37,316 nucleotides of DNA from Thermoanaerobaculia bacterium. GTDB taxonomy: Bacteria > Acidobacteriota > Thermoanaerobaculia > Gp7-AA8. Under the pieces are notes generated by a model that was not told where the DNA came from, searched no databases, and saw nothing but the letters and a program-made list of their open reading frames with translations. Each line of letters begins with the position of its first letter. Position 1 is the stretch's first letter. Positions 11,567 to 31,312 of this stretch are shown here, piece by piece. The position numbers and the translations under genes are program-made. Location of the stretch: positions 1-37,316 of the forward strand of contig JADGNZ010000057.1 in assembly GCA_017883205.1 (NCBI GenBank), in the 5' to 3' direction.

Positions 11567-11770
11567 TCGGAACCTCCTGGCCTGAGTTGAGACGCGGTTC
11601 TCTTCAAGGACACCGAACCGCTCGTTTTGTGGTGTGTGGCTGAACACCTCACCCACTTTGGGTTCAGTTCCGTGTCTATCCAACACGCGACAGATCAGAT
11701 GCGTGGCGACGGAAATCGAGAAGGCAGAAGGCGAGCCGGCCGGGGCGTCACGTCGAGGTCCGTCCGCGGG
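11567..11770. promoter_or_regulatory. Divergent intergenic region
   Basis: About 200 bp between the start of the AAA+ operon (minus) and the caspase-like gene (plus), so promoters for both directions must lie here. I cannot pick a convincing -35/-10 pair. A short inverted repeat, CTGAAC (11640-11645) and GTTCAG (11662-11667), could be an operator, but 6-bp arms can arise by chance. Confidence 0.35.
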
Positions 11771-13183
11771 ATGAAGACGCTTACGCTGATCCTGCTCGCC
11801 GGCATGGGCATGGTGGCCGCGGATATCGCGAAGGGGCAGGACACACGGTCAGTCAGGCCCCTCAGAGTCGCGCTTCCGAAGCCGGCATTCGACCCCACAC
11901 AGTCCGTGGCGTTGTTCGTCGGCATCCGCACCTTCCGAGATGACGAGATGCTTCAGAGCGTGCCGTATGCGGTCGACGATGCGATCGATCTCGCGTATGT
12001 CTTCTCGGTCGATCCGCGCGTGGCGCTGGTCCGCCCGAATCGCGTAGCGCTCGCACTGTCGGACGAAAACCCACGAAAAGAGATCTCGAAACGGCGCCTC
12101 GCGGAATTGAAACGAAAGGGCGCGATCGTCGTGACGGCCACCCAATCGCAGATCCTGAAGGTCCTGAACCACCAGGCGGGGTTGGCGGGAGTCGATGGAA
12201 TCTTCATCGTCTCGTTTGCAACGCACGGATACAGCAATGAGGGCGCCCAATACCTGCTGGCAACGAACTCACTCCTGGGCGAGCGCGACACGGCCATTCC
12301 CACGGCCAGAGTTCTCGATCTCGTCGCGGTATCCAATGCCGGTCGATCCCTCGTCCTGATCGACACCTGTCGTGAACGCGTGCGAAGGCAGCGCTCACCG
12401 GTCCCGGAGCCACTTTCGGCCGCACCGCTGATTCAGCGAATGGGACTGACAGCCGGGCAGGTGGTTCTGTACGGCGCCGCCGCGGGACGATGGGCATACG
12501 ACGACGACATCCGCCAGAATGGCGTATTCACCGGCGCCGTGCTGGACGCTCTTCAATGCCGCGCGGGGTCCGATGGTAACGGCCTCGTGACCGTCAACGA
12601 GCTTTCGGATGCGGTCGAGCGCAACGTGCTCCGTTGGATTCGTACGAATCGGGACCCGTCGATCCGCAACGCCACTCAGGCCAGCATCGACGGCGCGGCG
12701 CGAACGATGCCGCTGGCCACCTGTTCACGGCGCCCGCCACCCGATCCTCCCGTGATCGCGAAAGGCACGGGAGCAGTTTCACCTTCACCTCTCTCCACAC
12801 ACCGCACGCCGCTTCGGCCGCTTCTGGCGCAATGCAGGGCCGACGGCGAGACGCTCAGAAAACTATACGACTCGCGCACACCCGACCAATTCGTCGCGTC
12901 GTATCTGCGCTGGCGTGATGGCTGCGCCGCCGTGCTGCGCGACCTCGACCAGAGATTGCCACAAACGGCCGCTCAGGCCAGTGAGACTGTTCGATTCCTG
13001 TCCGTCGCCAACTTCTGGTGCGCGACAACATGCCCCGACGCGCTGTCTGCAGGGAAATGCGCCCTCTTCCGAGAAGAGCCTCGAGCGGAGCGCTGTTTCT
13101 GGGATCTCGACAAGGCCATCAGACAGGTCGACGACGTTCTCGTTCGCAATCCGTCTGCGCTGAGGACTGGGGAGTCTCCATGA
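11771..13183 (+). CDS. Exported caspase-like (C14 family) protein
   Basis: A 470-aa protein. ATG 11771 gives a clean signal peptide (MKTLTLILLAGMGMVAADIA); an open frame continues upstream without a signal. The caspase fold starts at SVALFVGIRTF (about 45-55). The catalytic His is in FATHG (His152; the usual motif is GHG) and the catalytic Cys in LIDTC (Cys200), the standard spacing and context for peptidase C14/metacaspase-like enzymes. A Pro-rich linker (about 320-350) leads to a C-terminal domain of about 120 residues with several cysteines (FWCATTC and GKCALF). No strong SD is visible. Its stop overlaps the next gene's start (ATGA), so the two are made together. Likely periplasmic; substrate unknown. 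Confidence 0.82.
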   Translation: MKTLTLILLAGMGMVAADIAKGQDTRSVRPLRVALPKPAFDPTQSVALFVGIRTFRDDEMLQSVPYAVDDAIDLAYVFSVDPRVALVRPNRVALALSDENPRKEISKRRLAELKRKGAIVVTATQSQILKVLNHQAGLAGVDGIFIVSFATHGYSNEGAQYLLATNSLLGERDTAIPTARVLDLVAVSNAGRSLVLIDTCRERVRRQRSPVPEPLSAAPLIQRMGLTAGQVVLYGAAAGRWAYDDDIRQNGVFTGAVLDALQCRAGSDGNGLVTVNELSDAVERNVLRWIRTNRDPSIRNATQASIDGAARTMPLATCSRRPPPDPPVIAKGTGAVSPSPLSTHRTPLRPLLAQCRADGETLRKLYDSRTPDQFVASYLRWRDGCAAVLRDLDQRLPQTAAQASETVRFLSVANFWCATTCPDALSAGKCALFREEPRAERCFWDLDKAIRQVDDVLVRNPSALRTGESP

Positions 13184-16666: not shown

Positions 16667-16676
16667 CAAGACGGCC

Positions 16677-17141
16677 TCACGCGCCTTCGCCACCGCTGTC
16701 CGTGCTGCCAACGCGGTACGTTGCCGCGGCGATCGCTTGCACGACGCCCTCCGCCGACACCGGCACTCCCTCTCGCCGGCCGAGCAGTTCCGCGACCCTC
16801 TCGACGGTTTCCCGCAGCCTGGCGTTCTCCACGATGAGGCCGTTGAGCATCGCCAGGAGCTCGGCGTTGTGACGCGATTCACGCTGTGATGAGAGCCATT
16901 CCTGGATGACACGAAGCATGCCCCAGCTCATTACCGTCTTCATATATGGCACGAGCGACTTGAAGAGCTCCAGCAGCACCGAATCGACGGCACCGGTCTC
17001 GAAACCCAGATCCGTCGGCGAGGTTGTCCCGACCAGCGGATCACCGCGATCCGATCGTTCCAGGAGCAGAGGTGCCGCGTACTCCAGTTCCGGAATCAGC
17101 TCTCCGAGTATGGCTGCGGTGATCGTGTCTTCACGGGTCAT
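16677..17141 (-). CDS. Small helical protein upstream of the M48 protease
   Basis: A 154-aa protein starting at ATG 17141. The open frame runs up to 17249, but the upstream part is Arg/Pro-rich and looks non-coding. The SD is weak (GAGGAT about 15 nt upstream). The sequence is mostly helical: an acidic start (EDTITAAILGELIPELEYAA), a middle hydrophobic stretch (LFKSLVPYMKTVMSWGML) and a coiled-coil-like segment near 95-125 (NGLIVENARLRETVERV). There is no signal peptide or recognised family. Only 10 bp separates it from the M48 gene, so it may be a cytoplasmic partner of that protease. Confidence 0.65.
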   Translation of the reverse strand: MTREDTITAAILGELIPELEYAAPLLLERSDRGDPLVGTTSPTDLGFETGAVDSVLLELFKSLVPYMKTVMSWGMLRVIQEWLSSQRESRHNAELLAMLNGLIVENARLRETVERVAELLGRREGVPVSAEGVVQAIAAATYRVGSTDSGGEGA

Positions 17142-17286: not shown

Positions 17287-19500
17287 TCAGCGTTTCCGGG
17301 AACGACGCGGGCGGACCGACTCGATCACGATGCGTTCGATCGACCACGTGGCGGGTGTGAGGATGGGCGCGCCGCGGTTGGTCGAGCTGGTGAGCGCGAC
17401 GAGACGCCCGAGCGCGGTGGTCGTCGCCGGCATCGGACCGCGGACGCCGTCCCACTGCAGGATCCACGGATCGCCGAACGGCTCGTCCGTCGCGAGAAGA
17501 ATGTACGTGTCGACGCCATACGGCGGCGCAATCTCGAACTTTGCGCCGAGCGGGATCACCGGTGGCGCGGCGGCACCGGCGAGCGGAAAATGATTCTCGA
17601 CCGAGCCGCTCACCGGAAAGAGAAGCGTGCTCTGGCCGTAGCTGTCGATCGTGAAGATGTAGACATGGCGGCGGCCGGTCCGCGCGCCAACCGGCGCCGG
17701 GGCGCGGAGCTCGAGCGCGTACGCATCATGGCCTTTCACGCTGCCGCCATCGGCAACGAGTTGCTGATCGCGTTCGCCACGCAACCCGAGGCGGTACGGC
17801 CAGCGCGCCTCGGGCGGCGACTCGAGGAGATTCCAAGCCTCGATCTTGTGAAGCCGCAAGGCCCGGTTGCGGAGCACGGAGGCCAGATCGCCGCCCGCAT
17901 CGCTGATCCAGGTGGTTCGCAGCGGCAGACCGGACGCGCGGCGGTCGCTGCGCACTGCGTTCGGGCGCACCCACGCGTACTCGACGTGATGACGAACGAA
18001 CCGCCCGGCCAGGACGTAGTCGGCATCTTCGGCATTGCCGATCACCTCGATGACGGCGGTGTCCGCGATCTGCACGGCCATCATTCCGGTCGCCGGGAGT
18101 TGGGCGAACAGCGAGGTTCCACGTCGAAGCCGGGTCAGCGCGTTCAGTGCGTCGTCGTCAGACTCGAACGAGCTGGGGTGGCCGCCGGCTTCGAGAAGCT
18201 CCCATCGCGGGCCGGCGCGGCGTAACAGATGCTCCGGCGTGCGGACGGTTGGATCGTTGATCCATTTCAGGCCGTGTTCCGCCGCAACCTTCGCGGCGCG
18301 GCGGGCGAAGACGGCGATGTCTGTGTCACTGCGCGGGATCGCCACGCGCAGCGGACGGGGCGGCGGCGCGGCCCAGCCGGTGAGCTCGAGCAGGTCTCCG
18401 CTGCGGACGTGCGCCGCGGCGGGAACGTGCGCTTCGCAGCGTCCGAGTCCGAGGAGCGCGGTGACGGTGAGGGGCGCTTGCGAATGCTCGCCGGCAACTC
18501 GCAGCTCGCTTCCGATGGTGATGCCGTGCGCCCATCCGCCGGAGATCACGGCCGTGCTGTCGCGAACGCGCTCGATGGCGAGCGTCGTACGGGCAGAGCG
18601 AGTCGTGTCGCTGACGCCGAGGAAGGGCATGCGTCGCTGGGCGGCATTGCCGGCCAGAACCGGATTCTGGAACGGCATCGCCGCGCGCAGCCGCGCCTGC
18701 GCTCGCAGGAACGTCTCCATCGCCGGCTCATCCACTGCCGCGTCCCTCATCGCCCGCATCCACGCCCAGGTGAATGCGCCGTGCATCGTCTTCTGGTCGT
18801 CACGAACCTCGCGTGCCTCTTCGTCGTCGTGCGCGGCGCTGATGACGAGCGCGCCGCGGTTCTCGGGACGGGGGCCGTAGTCACCGGCGTCAGCGATGTC
18901 GCGCAGATCGGGATGAATGCCGCGCGGCCGCGCGAGCGTGAGAAGTCCGCGCGCGGCGGAGCCGCTGTGACAGGCATCGATCATGACGGTGAGGTGCGCG
19001 CCGCGATCGAGAATGGCGTTGAAGATGCGCCGAAGCTCCTTGTCGCGGATGTCCAGCGCGCCGCGGCGCGAATCCGCAGGGATGATCGACTCGTCAAGCT
19101 TGTCGGGCTCGTCGGATCGCGAGTTCTTTACCTGCGATCCGTGGCCCGCGTAGAAGAAGAAGACGATGTCGTCCGGCGTAGCTCTCGCGGCGAGAGCGTT
19201 CGCGGCGGCGAGGATCGCGGTCCGTGTCGCCGCCTGGTCGTTGAGCGTGACGATGTCACGCGCGTCGAAGCCGCGCAGCAGCACGAGGAGCTCGCGCATC
19301 GCGATCGTGTCGTTGACCGCCCCGGAAAGATTCGGCCAGTCGCGGTCTGGCGCAGCAGCGCGGATCATCGTCAGCCGCGACGCGGTGTAGTCGTTGATGC
19401 CGATGAGCAGAGCCGATCGATGCGGCGCGGCTCGCGCCACAGGTTCAACGAGCACCAGTGAAGCAACGATCGCAACGATGCTAGCCAGTCTCACCGGCAC
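17287..19500 (-). CDS. Exported caspase (peptidase C14) with C-terminal DUF4384-like region
   Basis: A 737-aa protein. GTG 19500 is chosen because GAGGAG lies 8 nt upstream; GTG 19494 would give a 4-bp GTGA overlap with the preceding stop. The signal peptide is MPVRLASIVAIVASLVLVEP, cleaved near ARAAP. The caspase core begins at SALLIGINDY (29-38). The catalytic dyad is His120 in YAGHGSQ and Cys177 in MIDACHSG, a textbook C14/metacaspase pattern. The middle (about 300-600) is beta-rich and not recognised. Residues about 609-675 (HVYIFTIDSYGQSTLLFP, then VIPLGAKFEIAPPYG) resemble DUF4384, a domain often found after bacterial caspases. It overlaps the upstream 131-aa gene and probably acts in the periplasm. 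Confidence 0.9.
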   Translation of the reverse strand: MPVRLASIVAIVASLVLVEPVARAAPHRSALLIGINDYTASRLTMIRAAAPDRDWPNLSGAVNDTIAMRELLVLLRGFDARDIVTLNDQAATRTAILAAANALAARATPDDIVFFFYAGHGSQVKNSRSDEPDKLDESIIPADSRRGALDIRDKELRRIFNAILDRGAHLTVMIDACHSGSAARGLLTLARPRGIHPDLRDIADAGDYGPRPENRGALVISAAHDDEEAREVRDDQKTMHGAFTWAWMRAMRDAAVDEPAMETFLRAQARLRAAMPFQNPVLAGNAAQRRMPFLGVSDTTRSARTTLAIERVRDSTAVISGGWAHGITIGSELRVAGEHSQAPLTVTALLGLGRCEAHVPAAAHVRSGDLLELTGWAAPPPRPLRVAIPRSDTDIAVFARRAAKVAAEHGLKWINDPTVRTPEHLLRRAGPRWELLEAGGHPSSFESDDDALNALTRLRRGTSLFAQLPATGMMAVQIADTAVIEVIGNAEDADYVLAGRFVRHHVEYAWVRPNAVRSDRRASGLPLRTTWISDAGGDLASVLRNRALRLHKIEAWNLLESPPEARWPYRLGLRGERDQQLVADGGSVKGHDAYALELRAPAPVGARTGRRHVYIFTIDSYGQSTLLFPVSGSVENHFPLAGAAAPPVIPLGAKFEIAPPYGVDTYILLATDEPFGDPWILQWDGVRGPMPATTTALGRLVALTSSTNRGAPILTPATWSIERIVIESVRPRRSRKR

Positions 19501-19957: not shown

Positions 19958-21034
19958 TTATGGCTCGATGTAGCCCGGCGGGCAGAGCACGCGCTCATAC
20001 GCGGCGCGTCCGATGTCCAACCGCAGACCGCTCAGCAGTGGGGACCAGACTGCCGACTGCGGATGCACATCCGACCAGGCGGCCGTCGGGTATGACGGCG
20101 AACCGCTGGCCGCGCCGGCGAACGGCACGAGGCGCGTCTCCTTCGCGGGAGGATCCTGCATCAGGTCGTAGTACGCCTCGAAGTGCTTCCCAACCTGCGG
20201 CGCGTTGTTGTTCGCCGAGGCGGGAGGGACGAACGGCGGGAAATTGAGGACCGCAATCTCCATCGAGTTGTTCGCGTCCGGCGTGAGCGTCATCGACCGG
20301 CCGGCGTCGCCGTTGAACTTGCTCTCGACGATCTCGATGCCGCTGCCTGCAATCTCGACCTCGGCGCCGACCCACGAGGCGATCGCCTGCGTATACGCCG
20401 AGTCGCTGCCGGAGCCGTCGAGCCGCGAGAAGTGAACCGGCGTCACGTTCGAACCGATGCGCGTGACGGTGTAGGTGAAGAGACGGCCGCTGCGCAGATG
20501 GAAGCGTGCGACGACGGTCGACGGTGGAACCGACGCGAGCACCGCGGGATCGAGCGCGCAGCCGGAAGGGCAGACCTTCTTGAGGTCCGCGATCCAACTG
20601 ATGTCTTCGCGCTCGGCAGACGTCGAAGGAATCATCGACGGCTGACCGTCATTGAACGCGCGCGCGGTCGACGTGACCGAGAGCGCCGGCAGGTCGGGAT
20701 CGCTGCTGCTCGCTTTTTGCAGCGAGATGTCCGAACCGGAAAGCATCCACGCGCCTCCTCCGCCGGCCGCAGCTTCGAGCGAGTCCTGCGCCGTCGAGAG
20801 AGACTGATCGGCGTAGACGAACTGTGCGACGCCGCTGTCGCGCGTCGGGCAATCGCCGCTGCAAGAGCCGGCACGCGCGATGAGGAGTGGCTTGTGCTGC
20901 TGGAGTACGCTGCCGTCCGAGAGGTGGTGACTGTGGCCGGCTGCGAGGAGGAGGACCGTCATTTCGTGACCGTCCTGGCTGGGTGTAAAGACCATGAGAC
21001 CGCTGAACAGAATCTTGAGAATGAAGCTAGTCAA
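19958..21034 (-). CDS. CHAT-associated partner protein 1 (FE-x-YYD family), TTG start
   Basis: A 358-aa protein. TTG 21034 is chosen because AAGGAG (21043-21048) is 8 nt upstream, and TTGA overlaps the CHAT1 stop by 4 bp; the open frame continues upstream only as a shadow of CHAT1. The N-terminus (SFILKILFSGLMVFTP) is hydrophobic but is not a typical signal peptide. Most of the protein is beta-rich. It is homologous by eye to the 287-aa protein at 27258-28121: shared blocks are GLMVFTP/GMVTLTP, VVARFHLRSGRLFTY/IAAQFFLESGNVYAD and HFEAYYDLMQDPP/DFELYYDISRGGPP. Both sit directly after a TPR-CHAT gene. Family and function are unknown to me; a CHAT substrate, activator or chaperone is the natural guess. 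Confidence 0.75.
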   Translation of the reverse strand: MTSFILKILFSGLMVFTPSQDGHEMTVLLLAAGHSHHLSDGSVLQQHKPLLIARAGSCSGDCPTRDSGVAQFVYADQSLSTAQDSLEAAAGGGGAWMLSGSDISLQKASSSDPDLPALSVTSTARAFNDGQPSMIPSTSAEREDISWIADLKKVCPSGCALDPAVLASVPPSTVVARFHLRSGRLFTYTVTRIGSNVTPVHFSRLDGSGSDSAYTQAIASWVGAEVEIAGSGIEIVESKFNGDAGRSMTLTPDANNSMEIAVLNFPPFVPPASANNNAPQVGKHFEAYYDLMQDPPAKETRLVPFAGAASGSPSYPTAAWSDVHPQSAVWSPLLSGLRLDIGRAAYERVLCPPGYIEP

Positions 21035-24000
21035 GGTGGTTTCTCCTTCGTGATATCTCCTACCGGCGCAAAGGGCGAAGAGGCGTACCCAATCGCTTGG
21101 AACGGCGCCCAGGTGAGTCCCGAACTGAGGCCCGGATTGTTGCTCCGGAGCAATTCGAGTTGAGCCTGTCGGAGCGCCGCCGCCGCATCGCTGCCCTGTC
21201 GATAGTGACGATGAAAGGACACTAGAAGGCGCGTCGCTGTGGCGTCGTCGATATCCCATAGAGCGCCGACCACCCCCGGAACGCCGGCACCGATGATCGG
21301 CCGAACGAGCGGGGCAATGCCCTCCGCGCCGACCGGCAGCCCTCCGGCACTGCTGCAGGCGCCCAGCACGACCAGGCGGGTCTTATCGGTGTGCAACTCC
21401 CTGATCATCGTCTCAGCATTGAGCACGCCGTGGTCGCCACCCGAGGGAGTGAACAGAAGAAATGATTGTGATGGTGCGCCGCCGTTGACAATGCCATGCG
21501 CAGCGATATGAATGATGGCACTGCCGCCCGCCCGCCGTAGGAACTGCTCAGCCGTTGCAGCACCGCCGGTCAGCACCTCGGAACCGGCATACAACTTGTG
21601 GATTTCGACGGCTTCGCGCTCTGCGTTCGGAAGGGGGTCCAATCCTCGGGCAAGCGTGAATTGCCGGTCGAACGCAGGGTTTCCGATCAGCAGGGCGGAG
21701 GCATCGCCCGAATGCAGCTCGCGGTCGCGAAGGACCGCAAACACGTAGAGCAGCGCACTGCCCGAAATCGTCAGTGTGTGATCTTCGATCAAATACTTCT
21801 TCGTTTCCGGATCGCGTAACGCCCCAAACGGAAGGCCGCGTAATTCACGGTCCGGCACAATGACGATGTTCGCGTCAGCGACGCCTGACGCACGATTCAC
21901 CGATTCGAGAACCTTCTTCAACAGAGAGTCATACGGTGCGTCCAGGCCCGCTTCGAACGCATGCGCGTCCCTTGTTCGAGCCGCGTTCTGCAGGGCGTCC
22001 GTCCAGCGCTTTACGTCGCTGCGGCGAGCCGTCAAAGGTTGGACCATGAAGAGATTGCGGCCAAGTACCCAGGCCACCGTTTGGTCCTCGAAGACCCGAT
22101 ATTCGATGAGGAACGTTCGGGGCGGCAGATGTTCCTGCAGCTTGCGGATCTCGAAGTCGTCGGGATGCGCGGCAAGCTCGAGAAACGCCGCCGGCGCCTT
22201 TGGCAGCTTGCGGACGAGATCGAGCGGCTCAAATGCACGCGCGCGATCGGCATAACGGAATGCTTCGTCGGCCCGGCCTTCGCTGATCAATTGTCGGATC
22301 AGAAGGTCGTAGGTCTCGTCGAAACGGGTGAAATATGCATTCCAGAGGTCGTCGCGCCGTCCTGGCTTCCTGCCGCCCAGCAGCGCATCTTCCTCTTTGT
22401 GCAATTCTTTCAGCGCTGCGAGCCGGTCGGCCTCCGCTTCGGCGGTCCGTCCCAGGCGTCGAAAGGCCTCGGCGCGCTCAGCCAAGAGCGACGCGCGAAA
22501 CGTTACATATTCTCCTTTTGCCGCGACCTCGATCGCATGTGTCAGCGTGGACACTGCCCGGCTCGGGTCGGCGTGCAGTGCCGCTTCCCCCTGGACTTCC
22601 GCAAGGCGCGCCTCCAATGAGCGGCTAACGCTGGCATCGACCGCCGGCGTGTGTGCAGCAATCGCCGCGTCCACATCGCGCTGCGCTGCGTCATAACGCT
22701 GCAGCGTGAGCTCGATTGCGGCACGCTCGCGAAGGGAGATCGCGAGAAAAACAGTCGGTGCCCGGGCGGCGCTATTCACGCAGTCGTTTTGGTACAGCAG
22801 TGCAGCCTCGGGATGGCCGAGGTCGAGCGCGGCGTTGGCAGTAACACCCATGAGAAGAAAGTGCGTCTTCCAGTTGAGCAGCCGAGGTGCGTCTTTCACA
22901 GCCAGAAATGCTTCGCGCCACGCAACATCTTTGAGACCGACTACCGACATGGCGCTGATGGCGCGTGCGTCCGCCGCCTCACGGTCCTCCCAATCGCCGC
23001 ATCGGCCATACGCCGCCATCGCGGCATCGTAAGACGCGAACAATTCGTTGTACCGGCTGAGGAACTGATTCGTGTTGAGCCGGTTCAACTCTACGCGGGC
23101 GACGACCATCGGATACCGGTGCGAGCGGGCCTCCGCCTCGACTGCGTCGAGCTCTTTCAAGGACGGCTCATAGTCGTTCGTCAGCAAGGGGGTTTGTCCG
23201 GCATGACCAATGCGGGCAAGCAGATATTGTGGGCTGCCGGCCTGCCGCAGCAAACGCGCCGCTTCCTCGTAAAGCGGTGCCGCAGTTCCGGGGCCGAGCA
23301 CACGTTCGGCCGCACGAGCTCGTGCGAAAAGGACGTGCCCTCGCTTCAAATCGGCAAGAACCGCCGGGGGCGCATTGACAGCCGCTGCGGCGACGTCGAC
23401 GAAATAACGGTCATTGAAGAACCGCGACAGTGCCTCGGCGAACACCTTGACGCGCGAAGCCTGCTGCAGCGACGGCGAGTCCGCCCATCGTGCGAGCACG
23501 TCCTCCTCGAAGTACTGCTGCGACGTTGCCGGAAACGCCTCAATGAGGCTGACCGTCTTTGGTACGTCGTGCGCATCGATCGCAGCATCGATCTGCGTCC
23601 GAATACGCGCCCACTGGTGCTCGCCGTCTTGCGCCGTCCTCTGTATGAGCGCCAACCGGTGCGCACGCGCCTCGTCCGTCCATTCACCGCGCTCCGTCGC
23701 CGCCGCGCGCTGCCACGCCTCGATCGCATCGCCATTCAAGGACAGCGCCTCGAGGATCAGCGCCAGATTGAATTGCGCGCCTTCCGGCTGCGGCCGCATC
23801 GCCACGGCGCGCTGCGCCTTGTCGAGCGCGCGTAGCAGGTCCGCCGGACTGTCGTTCCGTTGCGCGCGGACGTAGTAAGCGCCGGCCAGATCGCTCATCG
23901 CTGCCGCCTCCGCGCGTGAGAAATTCTCCAGCACTGCGATTGCCGCGTCGGTGCATTGGGGGCGCGAAACCAGCATGCGGTTCGCCTCCTCGCGCGAATC

Positions 24001-24222
24001 GATCACATTATCGCAGCGGCCGGCGGCGATCGGCGCAGCCGCACATTGCGCCTCCGCCACCACGTGTCCGGGCGATAATTTGCGGGTGCACGAGTGCCAC
24101 GAGCGCGTCGTCGTCAGCCGCGGCTCGAACGTTCGCCCCCACATGCCGCCCGCGCCGGTGTCTTCATGATGGCAGGCCCCGGCAAACAGCAGCAGCGCAA
24201 CACAAGCAGTGAGGGCTTTCAC
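21031..24222 (-). CDS. TPR-CHAT protease 1, possible lipoprotein
   Basis: A 1063-aa protein starting at GTG 24222. There is no clear SD, but this start gives a signal sequence (MKALTACVALLLFAGAC) whose Cys17 could be lipidated; the frame further upstream is antisense to the sigma factor gene. Residues about 100-650 are helical TPR-like repeats (for example LAGAYYVRAQRNDSPADLL). The C-terminal CHAT domain (about 770-1050) has the catalytic His909 in IIHIAAHG and Cys956 in VVLGACSSAGG, then VVGALWDIDD, all standard for CHAT, a caspase-fold protease. TPR-CHAT proteins are proposed regulated proteases in bacterial conflict or death systems. It overlaps its partner gene by 4 bp and is divergent from an ECF sigma gene. 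Confidence 0.9.
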   Translation of the reverse strand: MKALTACVALLLFAGACHHEDTGAGGMWGRTFEPRLTTTRSWHSCTRKLSPGHVVAEAQCAAAPIAAGRCDNVIDSREEANRMLVSRPQCTDAAIAVLENFSRAEAAAMSDLAGAYYVRAQRNDSPADLLRALDKAQRAVAMRPQPEGAQFNLALILEALSLNGDAIEAWQRAAATERGEWTDEARAHRLALIQRTAQDGEHQWARIRTQIDAAIDAHDVPKTVSLIEAFPATSQQYFEEDVLARWADSPSLQQASRVKVFAEALSRFFNDRYFVDVAAAAVNAPPAVLADLKRGHVLFARARAAERVLGPGTAAPLYEEAARLLRQAGSPQYLLARIGHAGQTPLLTNDYEPSLKELDAVEAEARSHRYPMVVARVELNRLNTNQFLSRYNELFASYDAAMAAYGRCGDWEDREAADARAISAMSVVGLKDVAWREAFLAVKDAPRLLNWKTHFLLMGVTANAALDLGHPEAALLYQNDCVNSAARAPTVFLAISLRERAAIELTLQRYDAAQRDVDAAIAAHTPAVDASVSRSLEARLAEVQGEAALHADPSRAVSTLTHAIEVAAKGEYVTFRASLLAERAEAFRRLGRTAEAEADRLAALKELHKEEDALLGGRKPGRRDDLWNAYFTRFDETYDLLIRQLISEGRADEAFRYADRARAFEPLDLVRKLPKAPAAFLELAAHPDDFEIRKLQEHLPPRTFLIEYRVFEDQTVAWVLGRNLFMVQPLTARRSDVKRWTDALQNAARTRDAHAFEAGLDAPYDSLLKKVLESVNRASGVADANIVIVPDRELRGLPFGALRDPETKKYLIEDHTLTISGSALLYVFAVLRDRELHSGDASALLIGNPAFDRQFTLARGLDPLPNAEREAVEIHKLYAGSEVLTGGAATAEQFLRRAGGSAIIHIAAHGIVNGGAPSQSFLLFTPSGGDHGVLNAETMIRELHTDKTRLVVLGACSSAGGLPVGAEGIAPLVRPIIGAGVPGVVGALWDIDDATATRLLVSFHRHYRQGSDAAAALRQAQLELLRSNNPGLSSGLTWAPFQAIGYASSPFAPVGDITKEKPP

Positions 24223-24264
24223 GATGAGTGGACTATACGAAATGACGGGTGAGAGCGGTTGGTC
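24223..24264. promoter_or_regulatory. 42-bp divergent promoter region, CHAT1 / ECF sigma
   Basis: Only 42 bp separate the CHAT1 GTG (minus) and the sigma factor ATG (plus). Promoters must overlap each other or extend into the coding regions, and CHAT1 may have a very short or leaderless mRNA because no SD precedes it. The sigma factor has GGTGAGAG (24248-24255), 9 nt before its ATG. Shared control by the ECF factor is likely but not shown by a recognisable motif. Confidence 0.45.
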
Positions 24265-24810
24265 ATGATTGTAGACGGCGGCAGCCCGTACGACGAGCGC
24301 TTCGAGGCCATCTACCGGAAGTGCTACGCGCGTGTGTTTCGTTACTTTCGCACCAACCGCATCGCCGACGACGAAGCGCACGACCTTTCGCAGGACACGT
24401 TCAAGCGGCTGTATGAACGGATGGACCAGATTCGCAACGATGACCCCTGGCCGTTCCTGGCCACGATCGCGAAGACGATCCTTCTCAACCGCGTCCGTGC
24501 CCGGCAGACGCAGAAGCGCAGCGCGACGATGGTCGAGATCGACGATCCCGAGTTGTTGTTTGCTGAGCCAGCCGCACCGGCGGAGCTCGACTACGCCGAC
24601 CGGCAGGCTGAAGAGGCGCTTTGGGAACGAGTGCGCAGGGCGGTAGCGTCGTTGCCTCCGGGGCAGTGCGAGGCTCTCCGCCTCTGGATCGAAGGCTTCC
24701 AATACAACGAGATCACAAAGATCCTCGGCATCTCCATGGATGCCGTGAAATCGCGGCTGCGCGATGCGAAGAGATTCCTTCGCGAGCAGCTCGGAGAAAA
24801 ACCCTCATGA
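24265..24810 (+). CDS. ECF-type sigma factor
   Basis: A 181-aa RNA polymerase sigma factor with regions 2 and 4 only. Region 2 (about 11-80) includes FRYFRTNRIADDEAHDLSQD and the core-binding helix. Region 4 (about 122-175) ends in the helix-turn-helix YNEITKILGISMDAVKSRL. ATG 24265 has an SD (GGTGAGAG, spacing 9); TTG 24259 is less well spaced. Its stop overlaps the next gene (ATGA), which encodes a membrane protein suited to be its anti-sigma factor. It would direct polymerase to a small regulon, possibly including the divergent CHAT1 gene. Class is certain; signal and targets are unknown. Confidence 0.93.
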   Translation: MIVDGGSPYDERFEAIYRKCYARVFRYFRTNRIADDEAHDLSQDTFKRLYERMDQIRNDDPWPFLATIAKTILLNRVRARQTQKRSATMVEIDDPELLFAEPAAPAELDYADRQAEEALWERVRRAVASLPPGQCEALRLWIEGFQYNEITKILGISMDAVKSRLRDAKRFLREQLGEKPS

Positions 24811-25604
24811 AAACAACGATGAACCGATCCGACTGGCAGGCCGTCCGCGACGCGATGATCGCCGACGACCGAGCGAGCCTCGGCGAACCGCCGAGCGTCG
24901 ACGAGCTCCTCGCGTACGAGCGCGGCGAGCTTTCCAAGGAAAATGCCGAACGCGTTCAGCAACTGCTCGTTGCCTATCCCGAGCTCGCCCGCGCATACGC
25001 CACCCCGTTTCCATCCGACGACGCCAAACCCGGCGACTCCGATTACCTCGCCGGCGACGTCATCGACCGTCAGTTGATCGCGTTTCGCGCCGGCAACCGC
25101 AGCAGCGCCGCGAACGTCGACGGCGACGGTTCGAACGGGCGCCTGCTCCAGTTTTGGCTCCGAGCATCGGCGAGCGTCGCCGCGATCGCCGCCACCGTCG
25201 CCATCGTCTTCGGCGCGATGCTGTGGCGCACCCGCACCGAGCTGCTGCGGCCGCACGTCCTGCCGGAGGCAGCCATCCTGACGCCCGACGGCCGCCGAGG
25301 CGGGGCTGAACAGCCGCAGGCGGCGATCACCCCGGCCGGGGATTCCCTCCTGCTCGTCGTCTCGCTGGTCGGCCCGACCGACTACGAAACGTACCGGCTC
25401 GAGCTTGTCAGCACCGAATCGCACAAGCGCCTCTGGTCGAGCGACCCCCTGCGCGCGACGATCAGCAACAGCTTCAACGTCGAGGTCCCGTCCCGCGCGC
25501 TACCGGCCGGCACGTACCAAGTGATCGCGTACGGCCTGCGTGGGAACGCACAAGAGCAGGTCGCGACGTATACGATCGGCATCCGGCGTCCGCCATCCCC
25601 GTGA
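24807..25604 (+). CDS. Probable membrane anti-sigma factor
   Basis: A 265-aa protein starting at ATG 24807 and overlapping the sigma gene (ATGA). The cytoplasmic N-terminal part (about 1-112) has SVDELLAYERGELSKENAERV, laid out like the anti-sigma domain of zf-HC2 proteins but without the H-x3-C-x2-C zinc residues. One transmembrane helix lies near 116-140 (SVAAIAATVAIVFGAMLW). The periplasmic C-terminal part (about 141-265) is beta-rich (SLLLVVSLVGPTDYETYRLEL), probably sensory. Position and topology support an anti-sigma role; sequence evidence for the binding domain is moderate. Confidence 0.8.
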   Translation: MKTTMNRSDWQAVRDAMIADDRASLGEPPSVDELLAYERGELSKENAERVQQLLVAYPELARAYATPFPSDDAKPGDSDYLAGDVIDRQLIAFRAGNRSSAANVDGDGSNGRLLQFWLRASASVAAIAATVAIVFGAMLWRTRTELLRPHVLPEAAILTPDGRRGGAEQPQAAITPAGDSLLLVVSLVGPTDYETYRLELVSTESHKRLWSSDPLRATISNSFNVEVPSRALPAGTYQVIAYGLRGNAQEQVATYTIGIRRPPSP

Positions 25605-25894
25605 ACTTTGGAAACCGTGGAAGCGTGGCCGCGGACTCAGATCGTCGCTCAAGTCGGGGGATGACGGGGCTCTCGATAGACTCGACGACGGTTCACCGGT
25701 CGGCATGACCAGAACCCGGGGAACACATGCGCGCGCTATCGCTAGCTAGGTGTGATGGCCCCAAGCCTACAAGAAAGTGGGCGACCGCGAGCAGGGCCGC
25801 CGCGCTCTACAGAAAGGCGGCGTCGGCGACAGCTCACAATCCGCCAGCCGCGTTCGCGCGTCCCGTGGCGATAAGGAAGATCAAGAGTAGATGA
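25605..25894. other. 290-bp intergenic region, no gene seen
   Basis: Lies between the 3' ends of the anti-sigma gene (plus) and the subtilase gene (minus). Short frames occur in both directions but none has an SD, a plausible composition or an overlap with a neighbour. I see no long hairpin or repeat. The stretch around 25640-25680 is G-rich and could hold the terminator of the sigma operon, but I cannot define one. Confidence 0.5.
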
Positions 25895-27244
25895 TCAACC
25901 ATCCGATTCGTCCGATGCAATGCTCGCGCGCGGTGGTCGCTGTTTCTTCAAACGAACCGCCGCGCCGACCATCTCCTCGCAGTTCACGAAATTTCCAATC
26001 GGCAACTGGCTGGAGACATTCGGTTTCAGACTTCCGAGAATCTTAATCAGGTCGGCGTTAGTGAGTGCGTCATTGACGCTGACTGTCAATGCGATCGCGC
26101 CTGCCGCCTTGGCTGACGCGCCCGACGTTCCGCCATATCGCCTCGTGTAGTCTGTCTTCGAAGCGCTACCGCACGTCACATCAAGGTCCGGTTCGCCCGG
26201 AGCGGCGACGCTTACCCGGTAACCGTAGTTGCTGAACAGGGCTCGGGCATTAACCAAGTCGTCATACCCGGTCGCCGCGACCACAATGGACCCGGTATCC
26301 GGAATGGCCTGCCCGTCCTCACCGATGTCGGCGGAGACATTACCGTTCCCAGCAGGAATACAGACGAATACATCCGCAGCTACGGCGCGCCTCACCGCGC
26401 CTTGAACGACGACGGACGTCTCGACGCTGTATAGCATTCCGCTCTGAATCTCGACGTTGATGACTTTGCGCATTTCCGACGGCCTGCTCACCACCCAGTC
26501 GATTCCTGTCGCCCAGGGATTCACCAAGCCGGACGGCGGCTCGGGTCCGTCGTTACCGACGATACCGGCCTGCACCAGCCACAATGTGCACTCTGGTGCG
26601 AAACCGGCAATGCCGGCGCCGTTTGCACTCGCTCCGATCATACCGGCGGCGCCGGTACCGTGCGTCAGGTTTCCCATGCTCACGTCGTCACTGCCGTCCA
26701 ACACATTGTGTAGCCCATCCGCGGCGTATCGTCCTGCGAGATCCTCGTGTTCCAGGTAGAAACCCCAATCGACGTCGGCCACGACGACGCCTCCGCCTAG
26801 TGTCTGCTCCCACGCGCTCAGGGCGTCACAACGATAGAGGTACCACTGTGTCGGCGGATTCTCGTGCTTTTGATCATCCGGGCCAATGTAAGGGTCAGCC
26901 GGCAATGCCGAGGCCGGAATGAACATCGGCCGCCGAGCCGCCGCCACGACGCCAGGCCTTGTTCTCAATTGATGCGCGACTTCGTCGGAGCTGCGGTCGA
27001 GTGGAACCCGCACGGCGACGAAACGGTCGCGGCGCGGCTGGAGATCATCCACCAGCTCTGTCGCCCCGCCGAAGGCAAAAGCGGCGCGGATATCGCCATC
27101 GTCGACTCGGCCAGTAAGAAAGCCCAGCTCTCCATCGTTGACGGCCTGAATGAAGGCGACGATGTCTTCTCTCGGGACCTCTGGCGCAAACTCGATCTCG
27201 ACGACTTTGCTGTCACGCCGATCGATACCAGCAAACGAAACCAT
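25895..27244 (-). CDS. Subtilisin-like (S8) serine protease without a signal peptide
   Basis: A 449-aa protein. ATG 27244 follows GAGAGGAG; a longer open frame lies upstream but overlaps the partner gene. The catalytic triad is visible: Asp159 in VVVADVDWG, His195 in LTHGTGAAG and Ser374 in YGGTSGAS, with oxyanion Asn300 in CIPAGNGN. The Ser motif is GTSGAS rather than GTSMA. Residues 1-110 resemble a propeptide (VRVPLDRSSDEVAHQL, then VVAAARRPMF), which suggests a zymogen. No signal peptide or transmembrane segment is present, unlike most subtilases, so it is probably cytoplasmic. It lies 13 bp after the CHAT2 partner gene; activation by, or action on, that module is a reasonable inference. 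Confidence 0.88.
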   Translation of the reverse strand: MVSFAGIDRRDSKVVEIEFAPEVPREDIVAFIQAVNDGELGFLTGRVDDGDIRAAFAFGGATELVDDLQPRRDRFVAVRVPLDRSSDEVAHQLRTRPGVVAAARRPMFIPASALPADPYIGPDDQKHENPPTQWYLYRCDALSAWEQTLGGGVVVADVDWGFYLEHEDLAGRYAADGLHNVLDGSDDVSMGNLTHGTGAAGMIGASANGAGIAGFAPECTLWLVQAGIVGNDGPEPPSGLVNPWATGIDWVVSRPSEMRKVINVEIQSGMLYSVETSVVVQGAVRRAVAADVFVCIPAGNGNVSADIGEDGQAIPDTGSIVVAATGYDDLVNARALFSNYGYRVSVAAPGEPDLDVTCGSASKTDYTRRYGGTSGASAKAAGAIALTVSVNDALTNADLIKILGSLKPNVSSQLPIGNFVNCEEMVGAAVRLKKQRPPRASIASDESDG

Positions 27245-27257
27245 GATCGTGCTCCTC

Positions 27258-28121
27258 TCAACCACCGTTCTGAAGCGGTGGGCATCGATCCGTTCCGGGG
27301 ACCGGACCACTGCCCAGGTAATGGGGGATGGGCCGACGATTGGGAGGTCCGCCCCGCGAAATGTCATAATAGAGTTCGAAATCGACGCCCTTTTGGTGCG
27401 CGCCACTCGGGACTCCGTCAGGCACCTGCTGAAGAACTCCTATCGGCGCGCTGCCGAAATAGACCTTCATCATTCGCTGGCCGGTGTCGAACTTCAGACG
27501 CATTGGTTCTTGAGGAAGCTGATTGGACAGGGCGTTTGAGAGGATCGTAAAGGCCACGTCGGCATCCTGCAGTTCTATTTCCACCACCAATTCGTTCCGG
27601 AACACGATCGGCGCCGGATCGGGATCACCAGCACTCTTGAAGTAGACCTTTTCTGCGTTCCCGTCAGCATAGACGTTGCCGCTTTCCAAGAAGAACTGAG
27701 CGGCAATTGGACCTATGTTCTTTGGCATCGGCGTGGCGAAATCCGGCTCCATGACCGCCCCGGAGTTGAGCGACCGGATGTCCGCGATATCGCTCATCGA
27801 CGAGTCGAATGCAATCTTATGAGTCTGCGGGTCTCGCTCCAGCCACAGCCGCTCACTGTCGAGGATCCATCCGGCATACCCGAATTGATTGGCGGCAAGA
27901 TCGATGGCACGCCAGCTCGCACTCTGAACGATGTTTCGCTCTTCAGCCAACACGAACGCCACATGTTTTTGAATGCTCTCATTAGGATAGTTGAGTGACG
28001 TGCGCCGCGTCGGATTGTTCATCATCACGAATGTCGCGCTGCTCCTCGTGTTCGGATAAGGGATCGATCCCGGCGTGAGCGTCACCATTCCTGTGGCGGC
28101 CAACTGAAGTGTACGGGTCAT
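27258..28121 (-). CDS. CHAT-associated partner protein 2 (FE-x-YYD family)
   Basis: A 287-aa protein with ATG at 28121 and a good SD (GAGGAG). There is no signal peptide; the sequence is beta-rich. It is homologous to the 358-aa protein at 19958-21034 along its length, with the shared C-terminal motif F-E-x-Y-Y-D (DFELYYDIS here). The N-terminal block GMVTLTPGS matches GLMVFTPSQ there, and MEPDFATPMPKNIGPIAAQF aligns with a similar stretch. It sits 17 bp after TPR-CHAT protease 2 and 13 bp before the subtilase. Cys occurs only near the C-terminus. Function unknown; conserved pairing with CHAT is the main clue. Confidence 0.75.
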   Translation of the reverse strand: MTRTLQLAATGMVTLTPGSIPYPNTRSSATFVMMNNPTRRTSLNYPNESIQKHVAFVLAEERNIVQSASWRAIDLAANQFGYAGWILDSERLWLERDPQTHKIAFDSSMSDIADIRSLNSGAVMEPDFATPMPKNIGPIAAQFFLESGNVYADGNAEKVYFKSAGDPDPAPIVFRNELVVEIELQDADVAFTILSNALSNQLPQEPMRLKFDTGQRMMKVYFGSAPIGVLQQVPDGVPSGAHQKGVDFELYYDISRGGPPNRRPIPHYLGSGPVPGTDRCPPLQNGG

Positions 28122-28138
28122 GTTCTCTCTCCTCTGCG

Positions 28139-31100
28139 TTATCGGCAATTTCCGGCGATGTATACGAACGAACTCCATGAAGGGGGCGCATGTTCCCGGA
28201 TTGCGGCTCGTTGCGCCTCGTTGAGCGCAGCAGCCGGATCACTTCGCATGAGCTGTGGGTACAACCTCCGGATGAACGATTGCGCGTCATCATCTCCAAC
28301 CGGCCCCATGGCGGCAATGAAACCTGTCGCTCCTGCGCGGGCGAACGCATCACCGATGCTGCTCCACGCTTCCAGGTGTTTCCCCGATCGCAGTGCGCCC
28401 TCGCACGCCGAAAGCACGATCAGCGGGTGGCCGCGAAGACGCCACCGAGCGATGTCACGCCCGTAGAGCCGCTGGCCCCCGTCCAGTTGGAGAAAGGAGA
28501 GGCCGGGAACCGTCGCATTCGGGACACCGTGCCCGGCGAAATGAATCAGCGTCGCACGAAGCGCGAGCGAACTGATCTCGCCTGCCGTTTTAGCGTGCTC
28601 GCTGGCCGTGCCGTTCGCTTCGAGCGTGCGCTGTACCCCCGCGATCTCGGGGCTCACCTGCGGAAGGGGCCGCAAACTCGAACCACCCGGGTCGGCGGCA
28701 CCGATCAGGAGCGCCATCGACTTCATCCCGGCGGGGCGCTCTTCACATGTTGCAGATTCCCTCAGGGACGGTAGCAACGCGACGATGAAACTCTGAGCAA
28801 GGTACCGCCCGTCAGGGCCGCGGAGCGCCGCGATCGGCACCGTCCACAAAGCGTCGTCGGGCACTACCAGCAGTCGGGCCGCACCGGAGATGATGTCCCA
28901 TTGTGGGATAACCAGAAGTTGGGCGAGACGAAGCGCCGCTTCCTTACCGCGCCGCGTAGCCGGTTCGCCTGTTGACTCAACGACCAGTCTCCGCATCTCA
29001 GCGGCGGCGTGAGGATGGACGAGGGCGTGAATTTGCTCTTTCCGGACGGACCAGGAGATCACATCTTCTCCTGCAACGTAAAAAATCAGCGCGGCGGAGT
29101 CCGACGGTATCACCGGATCGATAGCGGCATCTGCGACGGGATAGCCATTCAGGCGGCGGCTCGATCTGCGGGCGCGCTCGCTGAGGGCCAACGCCTGTCG
29201 TGCCCGCCCATTCTTGACACACAAGAGGATTGCCTGGTCGTAGAGCGAGATCAGCGGCTGCACGGCCAGCGGCGAACGCCAGATCGCTTCGTCGTCGGAG
29301 GGAAGGCGCGCCTCGAGAGCGTCGATGGTTGCAATCAACACATTGATGGCAGCAGCAGAGTCATTCGCCAGCACGCTGCTGAGGCCCAAGGTCGTATCCG
29401 CGACGTCGGCAACGGTTCCGAGGCTCGATTGCGTGCGCGTCAGGATGCGGAGGGCTGCCGCCGGGTCGCTCTGCACCATCTGCTGCGCCGCCGTGGTTTC
29501 AATCCGCGTCATGCTCGCCTGCCGCACAACGTCGTCGCGAATCCGAGCCGCCGCGGTCTGCGCGGCAGTGAGGTCTAGTTCCGCCGCCCGTACATCGGCT
29601 AGGGCATGATGGAGCATGCTGCGAAGGCGAAGAGTTGCCGCCAGGCCGACATCGTCTTGCGCACTCGTATCGACCGTCACCAAGTGATCGAGCAGCAATC
29701 GCGCCATGGCGAAATGCCGGCTGCGAATTGCCGCCAAAGCACCTTCGACTAGGATTCCATGGCGCCAACGCACAGACTGAACAGACACGTGGAGCCCAAA
29801 GGCTCTAAATCGGTCACTCCAACTGTCATCAAAGAGCCCAATGCCGTCTTCCGCTTGCGCTCGCAGCACCGTAACCGCAGCGAGCAATTCGATCTCCCGT
29901 GTCGCCTGGAATCGCTCAATGGCCGAAGCGTAATCGCGGACCGAATCGCGCGGATCGCCTGTTTCCATCGTGACCAGCCCGCGAATCCAATAAGCACGCC
30001 CGCTGACCGAGGGACAACGCCTGGCGAGCGTTGGATCTGTGATGAGGACCTCGACAAGGCGCCCGGCAAGGACGTAATTTCGATTGACGAAATGGCAACT
30101 CGCCAGTGTCGTCGCCGCGAGATGGCGAAATGGAAACGAGTGCGCCTCGAACAGATGCAGCGCGTGTTGCGATTGCTCGATCGACTTGCTGTATTGGGCC
30201 TGCTCGTACAGCGAGCGACTACGCTCGTACGATAGTTGCGCACGTGCCGCATCATCGAGAACGGCCGGCGTTGCCTGCGCGCGCTGAAGAGCGATTACGT
30301 GGTCGGCGAGAAGGAAATCGCCACTCACCATTGCAACGATACGTGCGGCTTCAGCGATGGCTTGCAGCTGACGGGGAGCCCCAGCATCACGTCTCAACCA
30401 TGCATGGGCCCAGTCGGAGAGCGCGCTCTCCTCCAACCATTCCCGCGATTGTTGCGGAAACTCCGCGACCACCAATCTCAACGTGTTCTGATTGGAATTC
30501 GCAAGAGCGGAGATCAGGCTGGATCGGGCATCGCTCCACGATCTCGCGGCCATCCTCGCAGACAATGCGCCCCTCCTGTGCATCGCTTCGGTACGCCACG
30601 ACGACCGACCATCCCGTCCAGCGTAATCGGTCCAAACGTCCGCCGCCATTTGGTTGAGGCCGATCGCGGACACGGCAAGCGCATGATTCCAAACCGCTTC
30701 ATCGGACTTCCATATCGCACGAGCCCTCGCCGCAGCCTCGACTGCGTCGAGACGATCTCGGGTTTTGCCTCTCGCATTAAGGGCCACGCAAAAATCGTTC
30801 AAGAGAGGTCCCTCATTCGATCGGCGGATCGCCTCCGATACGTCCGCACTTCCTGTTGCGTTTTGCAGGGCTTCTCGGAGTTGCCCAACCGCACGATCGT
30901 ATTTCCCCAGCAATAGGTACGCAATTCCCAAGCGGTGCTGGAGCGACGGCATGGTCTTTCCGGCGTTCGCCTTTTCGAGAATGTCGACCACGGAGATCAC
31001 ACGCCCCCGGAATTTAGAGACGGACGATACGTCCTCTTTCGCGGAACCAACGAACGGTCGGTATCGAAAGCCGCCACTCAGCCGTCCTTCAAGCGGTCGA

Positions 31101-31312
31101 TAGTGAAGGTCGGCCGCAGCGCCGGTGAGAGCCTGAAGCAATCCAACGGTGTCGTGATCGATACGCTCTCGGGACGTGTCTCTCACAACGACAATCAGCA
31201 GCGCTGCGACGCCGGCACCGAGCAAGAGCAGCCAGACCATCAAGCCGTGCGCCCGTCGGCGATGCAGAGGCTCGTGCGCGCGAAGATTGAACGGAGAGGG
31301 CCCGTTTCCCAT
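28139..31312 (-). CDS. TPR-CHAT protease 2, membrane anchored
   Basis: A protein of about 1057 aa. The start is uncertain: ATG 31312 has GAGGCGG close by; GTG 31390 (1083 aa) and ATG 31243 are alternatives, none with an ideal SD. One transmembrane helix (about 25-44, MVWLLLLGAGVAALLIVVV) follows a basic segment, predicting the rest outside the cytoplasm. TPR-like helices fill about 100-720. The C-terminal CHAT domain has His928 in IHFAGHG and Cys970 in IVLSACEGA. It is a paralogue of CHAT1: FPQQSREWLEESALSDWA here matches FPATSQQYFEEDVLARWA there, and VPDDALWTVPIAALRGPD matches VPDRELRGLPFGALRDPE. It heads an operon with partner 2 and a subtilase. Confidence 0.87.
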   Translation of the reverse strand: MGNGPSPFNLRAHEPLHRRRAHGLMVWLLLLGAGVAALLIVVVRDTSRERIDHDTVGLLQALTGAAADLHYRPLEGRLSGGFRYRPFVGSAKEDVSSVSKFRGRVISVVDILEKANAGKTMPSLQHRLGIAYLLLGKYDRAVGQLREALQNATGSADVSEAIRRSNEGPLLNDFCVALNARGKTRDRLDAVEAAARARAIWKSDEAVWNHALAVSAIGLNQMAADVWTDYAGRDGRSSWRTEAMHRRGALSARMAARSWSDARSSLISALANSNQNTLRLVVAEFPQQSREWLEESALSDWAHAWLRRDAGAPRQLQAIAEAARIVAMVSGDFLLADHVIALQRAQATPAVLDDAARAQLSYERSRSLYEQAQYSKSIEQSQHALHLFEAHSFPFRHLAATTLASCHFVNRNYVLAGRLVEVLITDPTLARRCPSVSGRAYWIRGLVTMETGDPRDSVRDYASAIERFQATREIELLAAVTVLRAQAEDGIGLFDDSWSDRFRAFGLHVSVQSVRWRHGILVEGALAAIRSRHFAMARLLLDHLVTVDTSAQDDVGLAATLRLRSMLHHALADVRAAELDLTAAQTAAARIRDDVVRQASMTRIETTAAQQMVQSDPAAALRILTRTQSSLGTVADVADTTLGLSSVLANDSAAAINVLIATIDALEARLPSDDEAIWRSPLAVQPLISLYDQAILLCVKNGRARQALALSERARRSSRRLNGYPVADAAIDPVIPSDSAALIFYVAGEDVISWSVRKEQIHALVHPHAAAEMRRLVVESTGEPATRRGKEAALRLAQLLVIPQWDIISGAARLLVVPDDALWTVPIAALRGPDGRYLAQSFIVALLPSLRESATCEERPAGMKSMALLIGAADPGGSSLRPLPQVSPEIAGVQRTLEANGTASEHAKTAGEISSLALRATLIHFAGHGVPNATVPGLSFLQLDGGQRLYGRDIARWRLRGHPLIVLSACEGALRSGKHLEAWSSIGDAFARAGATGFIAAMGPVGDDDAQSFIRRLYPQLMRSDPAAALNEAQRAAIREHAPPSWSSFVYIAGNCR

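Follow-up and report, generated by a model that had tools for sequence, protein, structure and literature searches.

On a 37,316-base contig of a Thermoanaerobaculia bacterium, the stretch of DNA analysed here as the window (genome 6.37 Mb), two TPR-CHAT protease genes are each followed directly by a gene for a beta-rich partner protein. We find, by sequence profiles, that the two partners belong to one superfamily with strong genetic linkage to CHAT genes and with a nearly invariant cysteine (Cys) in a short C-terminal tail. The family and its near-terminal Cys point to an undescribed protease signalling module. Our favored reading, to which we assign a probability of about 45%, is that the window modules are protease relays in which the partner is a client, most likely a substrate, of its CHAT protease. 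To our knowledge, natural substrates are known for few CHAT proteases. What was an anonymous gene pair is now a superfamily of defined membership that is strongly linked to these proteases genetically, and its tail peptide provides a direct handle on what they recognize.

The partner superfamily and its linkage to CHAT genes

Both TPR-CHAT genes lie on the minus strand where the initial annotation had placed them: CHAT1 at 21031-24222 (Pfam CHAT E-value (E) 5e-53; 180.8 bits against a cut-off of 24) and CHAT2 at 28139-31312 (E 3.7e-41; 141.9 bits, same cut-off). The partner genes follow on the same strand, as claimed: partner1 (358 amino acids, 19958-21034) has a TTG start that overlaps the CHAT1 stop, and partner2 (287 amino acids, 27258-28121) begins 17 nucleotides after CHAT2. 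The 3 blocks described as shared are present in the same order in partner1 and partner2: SGLMVFTP and TGMVTLTP, FHLRSG and FFLESG, FEAYYD and FELYYD. The kinship of the CHAT proteins also held (23% identity, E 1e-17), and the FPxxS..EE..L..WA element noted in them matches, as a regular expression, 18 of 50 partner-bearing CHATs versus 1 of 28 others. What did not survive is the claim that the pair was retained through duplication. We rejected a local duplication of one module: the CHATs are distant from each other and so are the partners (about 20% identical), and partner1 is far closer to relatives in other genomes (61% identity). On a CHAT tree, CHAT1 sits among the CHATs of other genomes, and CHAT2 forms a long branch of unsure placement. 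On these comparisons, the modules of the window diverged long ago and are not a local duplication.

The partners are related across this divergence. Direct comparison by BLASTP is marginal (E 0.005), and the profile-profile alignment proposed with the initial annotation failed when the partner2 profile held two sequences (3.7% probability); that profile was too shallow, and wider ones resolved the failure. A similarity search of 119 genomes, the window's included, gave matches at E <= 0.01 in eight genomes for partner1 and three for partner2; weak matches in G102 (stretch L026) and G027 (L028) were dropped before counting, and the partner profile confirmed neither. A profile built from 10 partner1-type sequences then recovers partner2 at E 2.8e-5 among 599 open reading frames (ORFs), with all unrelated ORFs at 1.6 or above. 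We sampled 80 stretches around CHAT matches and collected the genes behind CHAT, for a total of 43 proteins. Each was removed in turn together with its BLAST relatives, and the remaining profile was run against 3208 ORFs: 42 of the 43 returned at E <= 3.1e-4 (partner1 at 4.6e-20, partner2 at 7.1e-12), all scoring better than the best non-member of any run (0.0029). The sole miss, a gene behind a CHAT in L112 (E 8.9), was excluded from later profiles and from the 54 or 55 members counted below. One further hit, the gene at 7802-8563 of L081, bears the tail itself and was taken in as a member. With the full profile, which includes it, the best non-member among the same ORFs stands at E 0.045. 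Disjoint profiles of the partner1 and partner2 groups align at 99.5% probability (E 2.5e-23) over most of their length, and the profile of a third group, the tail branch described below, aligns to these two at 98.5% and 97.3%.

The family appears to be new to the resources searched, in line with its description as unrecognized. None of 42 members matches Pfam at E <= 0.01, a weak CBM46 match of partner1 falling far under the cut-off; the two window partners have only sub-threshold NCBIfam matches and no PADLOC match. Among PDB sequences, one partner profile (A4) has no match at E <= 1 and another (A6) only implausible ones (best E 0.027). A tblastn search of plasmids with two members gave no match, viral contigs yielded no confirmed relatives, and a literature search whose coverage left out most subscription journals found no paper on the family. 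Assemblies that carry it are, where named, Acidobacteriota, some labelled gp7. Among 396 genomes sampled across the phylum, at least 13 have profile members, a lower bound since at most six candidates were scored per genome. Both window partners belong to the superfamily by profile, N-terminal F-x-G hairpin, H47, N264, P304, and tail Cys, although partner2 has Ser at N264 and Ala at F10. The initial observation is thus confirmed at the level of sequence and now covers a whole superfamily.

Linkage to CHAT is strong by every sequence-based count. Of 14 relatives found by similarity alone (L016-L025, L027, L037, L038, and L039), 13 adjoin a TPR-CHAT gene, the exception being L037. Among 10 later members, found by profile in other families of the phylum, nine adjoin CHAT and the tenth (L220) is one gene away. 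Fifteen of 18 known genomes of the window's own family, searched with a profile partly built from CHAT-adjacent genes, gave 43 match rows that correspond to 41 genes, 38 of them beside CHAT. Across the whole set (56 rows, 55 genes, 27 of which come from stretches harvested at CHAT), 50 members are adjacent to TPR-CHAT and 51 lie within two genes of it, the enrichment that the initial annotation had suggested counting. In adjacent pairs CHAT comes first and the partner second, with gaps of -58 to +179 bases; the order is reversed in L039 and L132. CHAT matches occur in 28 of 40 related genomes, and CHAT genes that lack a partner are numerous: 34 of 84 CHAT ORFs of at least 700 amino acids, with L137 counted as partner-bearing. 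On the CHAT tree, which like the underlying alignment excludes six truncated or odd CHATs from those 34, possession of a partner requires 5 changes, versus a mean of 23 with shuffled labels. Distances among CHATs correlate with distances among partners, at r 0.58 over 50 pairs and r 0.45 over the 42 left by thinning, with 0 of 5000 permutations reaching either value.

Plain operon hitch-hiking, with no functional link between the two genes, would be enough to explain linkage among close relatives, where common inheritance suffices. It is put in extreme doubt by linkage that persists in further families of the phylum, whose partners have diverged strongly, by the nearly constant CHAT-then-partner order, and by the existence of partner-protease fusions; we give it almost no credence.

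The 3 exceptions among the 41 genes are L081:7802-8563, a frame-split copy on contig 88 of G002 (L228), and a gene on contig 518 of G011 (L229). The first, on the minus strand, is a tail-bearing family member ending in CSDSHYP; its own CHAT is not in the stretch, and it faces an ordinary CHAT-partner pair. It is preceded on the same strand by a highly repetitive ORF of SVDGSKSTVDATK type (L081:8536-9204). The second (L228:5579-6472, minus strand) runs over two frames, ends in CSNPAYP, and has no CHAT in the 14 kb examined; from its sequence it looks like a decayed copy.

Conserved residues, tail, and predicted fold

An alignment of 54 members, numbered here by partner1, reveals a small set of nearly fixed positions: P304 in all 54; G12, H47, N264, and C351 in 52 each; and G183 in 51. 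C351 follows P304 by a median of 23.5 residues (range 3-69) and commonly lies five to seven residues from the C-terminus, where the last residue is Pro in 32 of 54. A Cys within the last 16 residues is found in 50 of 54 members, versus 115 of 843 other genes; L122, among the four members without it, is a piece cut from a fusion. The form of the tail varies by branch. Both window partners have the C-P-P form (partner1 ...VLCPPGYIEP; partner2 ...DRCPPLQNGG), and one branch has C-S-N-x-x-[YFW]-P. This strict tail is present in 16 of 41 members; outside that set it matched 2 of 754 genes, both of which proved to be family members (L132 and L081:7802-8563). Searched as a DNA pattern in seven genomes it gave 14 matches: 11 are ends of family genes, and the remaining 3 correspond to no ORF of at least 60 amino acids ending in the strict tail. 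By these counts, the strict tail is almost confined to the partner family.

Such a residue pattern raises the question of whether the partner might be an enzyme in its own right, or an acyl or thioester carrier, with H47, N264, and the tail C351 forming a Cys-His-Asn site that closes when the tail docks. The near-invariance of each of the three residues despite an identity to partner1 of only 15-24% for most members would fit such a site, as would the joint absence of H47 and C351 from L027 and the fact that the tail Cys of partner2 is the only Cys in the protein. Yet partner2 has Ser at N264, L025 keeps the His and lacks the Cys, no enzyme fold is matched at E <= 0.001, and it would be unusual for a catalytic Cys to sit on a mobile tail. 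We regard a catalytic partner as quite unlikely.

The AlphaFold model of partner1 consists mainly of beta strands, with a mean predicted local distance difference test score (pLDDT) of 89.4 and a predicted template modelling score (pTM) of 0.91. Within it, tail residues 351-358 have a mean pLDDT of 85, versus 59 for residues 341-350; a better-defined tail after a weak stretch is what would be expected if the tail docks and the linker before it is flexible, and it supports the relay. The partner2 model is weaker (pLDDT 70.7, pTM 0.75), with a strand order that looks similar by eye. Neither model matches a PDB fold at E <= 0.001 in Foldseek, and partner1 has no match at that level among predicted viral folds. 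Comparison with VIA-align gave nothing over Z 2.3 among the chains compared, in two rows that are entries of one carbohydrate-binding module. The models suggest an undescribed fold, for which a lack of fold matches is not proof.

A possible protease relay and the roles that compete with it

Module 1 comprises CHAT1, partner1, and a gene for a caspase-type protease, with a sigma gene and a probable anti-sigma gene divergent from CHAT1; module 2 comprises CHAT2, partner2, and a subtilase gene. The caspase gene (17287-19494, minus strand; Peptidase_C14 E 7.5e-22) encodes an apparent signal peptide and probably starts at a GTG at 19494 or 19500. The subtilase gene (25895-27244, minus strand; Peptidase_S8 E 1.3e-22) probably starts at an inner ATG at 27244; a leader peptide is not seen. 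On the plus strand, divergent from CHAT1, lie an extracytoplasmic function (ECF)-type sigma factor gene (24259-24810; Sigma70_r4_2 2.6e-8, Sigma70_ECF 2.2e-7, Sigma70_r2 5.4e-7) and the gene for a likely membrane anti-sigma factor (24807-25604, with a probable ATG start at 24807). The latter protein has one hydrophobic segment by eye and no Pfam match, and its relatives occupy the equivalent position in L016-L024.

In the relay that we favor, a membrane-anchored TPR-CHAT, a dedicated partner, and an exchangeable hydrolase next in line (the caspase of module 1 or the subtilase of module 2) would act in sequence. The beta-domain of the partner would be tethered through a variable linker to the short tail with its nearly invariant Cys; CHAT may read this tail; and cutting the tail, or pulling it off the body, would switch the partner and, via the partner, the downstream hydrolase. 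The sigma and anti-sigma factors would link this switch to transcription, in some relatives through a zinc-finger anti-sigma domain fused to the CHAT N-terminus. The sequences themselves show the family, its CHAT linkage, the tail, CHATs with intact residues, hydrophobic anchors, neighbors that resemble sigma genes, and fusions of partner and caspase; we infer the recognition, the cleavage, the direction of the relay, and its trigger.

The CHAT residues are intact throughout. When 78 CHAT domains are aligned, both catalytic-type residues, His and Cys, are present in 50 of 50 partner-bearing proteins, which argues for catalysis; in the window they lie in AAHG and LGACS of CHAT1 and in FAGHG and LSACE of CHAT2. 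A catalytic loss in some CHATs, suggested when a regular expression missed the His or Cys, was withdrawn on the basis of this alignment. The residue after the catalytic-type His is mostly Ala, Thr, or Ser in partner-bearing CHATs and mostly Gly in partnerless ones; both window CHATs have Gly. In terms of location, CHAT1 has a lipoprotein-like leader by eye (VKALTACVALLLFAGAC) and CHAT2 an N-terminal membrane segment (MVWLLLLGAGVAALLIVVV). Among 41 CHATs inspected, all but one with a confirmed partner, a hydropathy rule finds an N-terminal hydrophobic segment in 32; of the other nine, six have lipoprotein-like leaders by eye and three are unclear. Most partner-bearing CHATs thus look membrane-anchored and, by a topology judged partly by eye, outward-facing.

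Sigma-like genes accompany these CHATs. At least 21 of 49 partner-bearing CHATs, versus 3 of 35 others, have one nearby, a lower bound since the divergent sigma gene of the window was uncounted and L137 was misfiled. In L103, L081, and L100, CHAT proteins have the order zf-HC2, membrane segment, TPRs, CHAT (zf-HC2 above the Pfam cut-off in L103 and L081, under it in L100), with a sigma-like gene directly upstream. These upstream genes were recognized by mutual similarity; Pfam sigma region 4 is above cut-off in the L100 gene and under it in the L039 gene. The fusions and the excess of sigma-like neighbors would also suit a partner that serves CHAT as an envelope sensor or ligand, its state setting the sigma factor via the anti-sigma domain, with CHAT sensing the partner and not acting on it. 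The retention of catalytic residues in all 50 aligned CHATs speaks against that account, as do the partners, in most of which a leader is not visible; we hold it to be improbable.

The genes in third place are diverse. Twenty proteins were scanned, hand-picked and in part chosen since an earlier comparison had flagged them: nine match peptidase families (four trypsin-like, two subtilases, two papain-like C39, one fungalysin), one matches a lipase, and L122 has a caspase domain behind its partner domain. The rest comprise a cupin, a glycosidase, two proteins resembling methyltransferases, and proteins with no match. The third place is thus exchangeable and not always held by a protease. Two genes join the partner to a protease directly: L122:6866-8485 encodes a partner domain followed by a caspase domain (just under the Pfam cut-off), and L132:9303-11798 a caspase followed by a partner domain in one reading frame. 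These fusions in opposite orders, together with neighbors that are proteases of several clans, are also what one would expect of an uncut partner, which would act as adaptor or inhibitor, bind the hydrolase of the third gene, and dock it on CHAT via the tail, much as inhibitory subunits sit beside their enzymes or are fused to them. The next genes scanned in L025, L100, and L123, however, encode no hydrolase of proteins, so protease binding cannot be the common role of the partner there. We consider an uncut partner doubtful, if the least so of the alternatives.

Several observations weigh against the relay. We found no conserved cleavage site. Joint inheritance of operon neighbors would account for the correlation between CHAT and partner distances equally well. 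The reversed tail pattern produced 5 chance matches in the same seven genomes that were searched with the strict tail, and the tail Cys is absent from two members, L025 and L027. Partnerless CHATs retain the same His and Cys as the partner-bearing ones (28 of 28). The predicted locations look contradictory: by eye, the starts of the eight module-1-type caspases inspected resemble leaders, the window subtilase shows none, and a leader, also by eye, is visible in only 5 of 54 partners (L037, L087, L093, L108, and L225), ahead of the conserved hairpin. The remaining partners begin directly at the hairpin though their CHATs look exported. CHATs and module 1 caspases thus look exported and most partners do not.

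A bolder proposal, which we consider unlikely, is that the Cys tail, in its C-S-N-x-x-[YFW]-P form in one branch and C-P-P-like forms in others, is a dedicated address tag for membrane-anchored TPR-CHATs, some of them with an anti-sigma zinc finger at the N-terminus. These CHATs would cut the tag, or transfer it in the manner of clan CD transpeptidases, and thereby switch a partner whose H47/N264/C351 site would be a new active center. If true, it would define a previously unseen family of envelope signaling relays with exchangeable protease outputs.

Relation to known systems

The nearest tested parallel to the proposed relay is Craspase, also known as CASP, a type III-E system with the TPR-CHAT protease Csx29, Csx30, Csx31, and CASP-sigma. 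Csx29 cleaves Csx30, recognizes its C-terminal domain, and requires its last 20 residues, and Csx30 restrains a sigma factor (PMC10028731). Csx29 and Csx30 thus offer a precedent for a substrate whose tail is read. The likeness extends to a TPR-CHAT, a dedicated partner, an ECF-type sigma factor, and a partner C-terminus proposed as the part that CHAT recognizes. Differences are several: no Cas7-11/gRAMP domain was found in 20 window proteins scanned with Pfam, modules included; window-type CHATs look membrane-anchored; and the anti-sigma role would reside in a separate gene or in the CHAT N-terminus. The PDB should include Csx30; partner profiles have no sensible match to a PDB chain, Csx30 not having been compared profile to profile. 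If the relay is true, a single module anchored in the envelope would tie proteolysis to a sigma factor and to a second protease that can be exchanged, a Craspase parallel without CRISPR.

Two other systems resemble the modules in gene content. Bacterial gasdermins are beta-rich proteins encoded beside caspase, trypsin, or CHAT genes, and their C-terminal peptide matters. No gasdermin is among the 50 Foldseek matches listed for each partner model, nor among the VIA-align matches listed, and the conserved Cys of the partner family lies at the C-terminus. The caspase/trypsin conflict systems of multicellular prokaryotes are gene clusters with multiple proteases. The window caspase matches an EACC1-type caspase model below threshold (50.7 bits; cut-off 140), but scans of the module proteins with Pfam and NCBIfam, in which EACC1 and VMAP models were not individually searched, name no nucleoside triphosphatase core.

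Part of the gene association is already in print, because the relevant section of an ECF review places carboxypeptidase, subtilase, and CHAT proteins in the conserved context of ECF54 genes and proposes proteolytic control (PMC8999054). CHAT and subtilase genes near a sigma gene are found in the window too; that section of the review mentions no partner protein (PMC8999054).

Within the window's own genome (G000), five of nine CHAT matches have an adjacent partner-family gene, giving at least 5 such modules. Other genes of the window lie around the two described here. A second caspase-type gene is found at 11627-13183 (plus strand; Peptidase_C14 E 3.9e-7), and ORFs related to it (E <= 8e-27) recur near partner1-type modules in L016, L017, L019-L021, and L023. 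A big membrane protein encoded at 13910-16912 (minus strand) adjoins the module 1 caspase and has a weak M48 match (19.3 bits; cut-off 20.3). At 264-3016 (plus strand), an FHA/sigma-54 activator gene overlaps a protein kinase gene.

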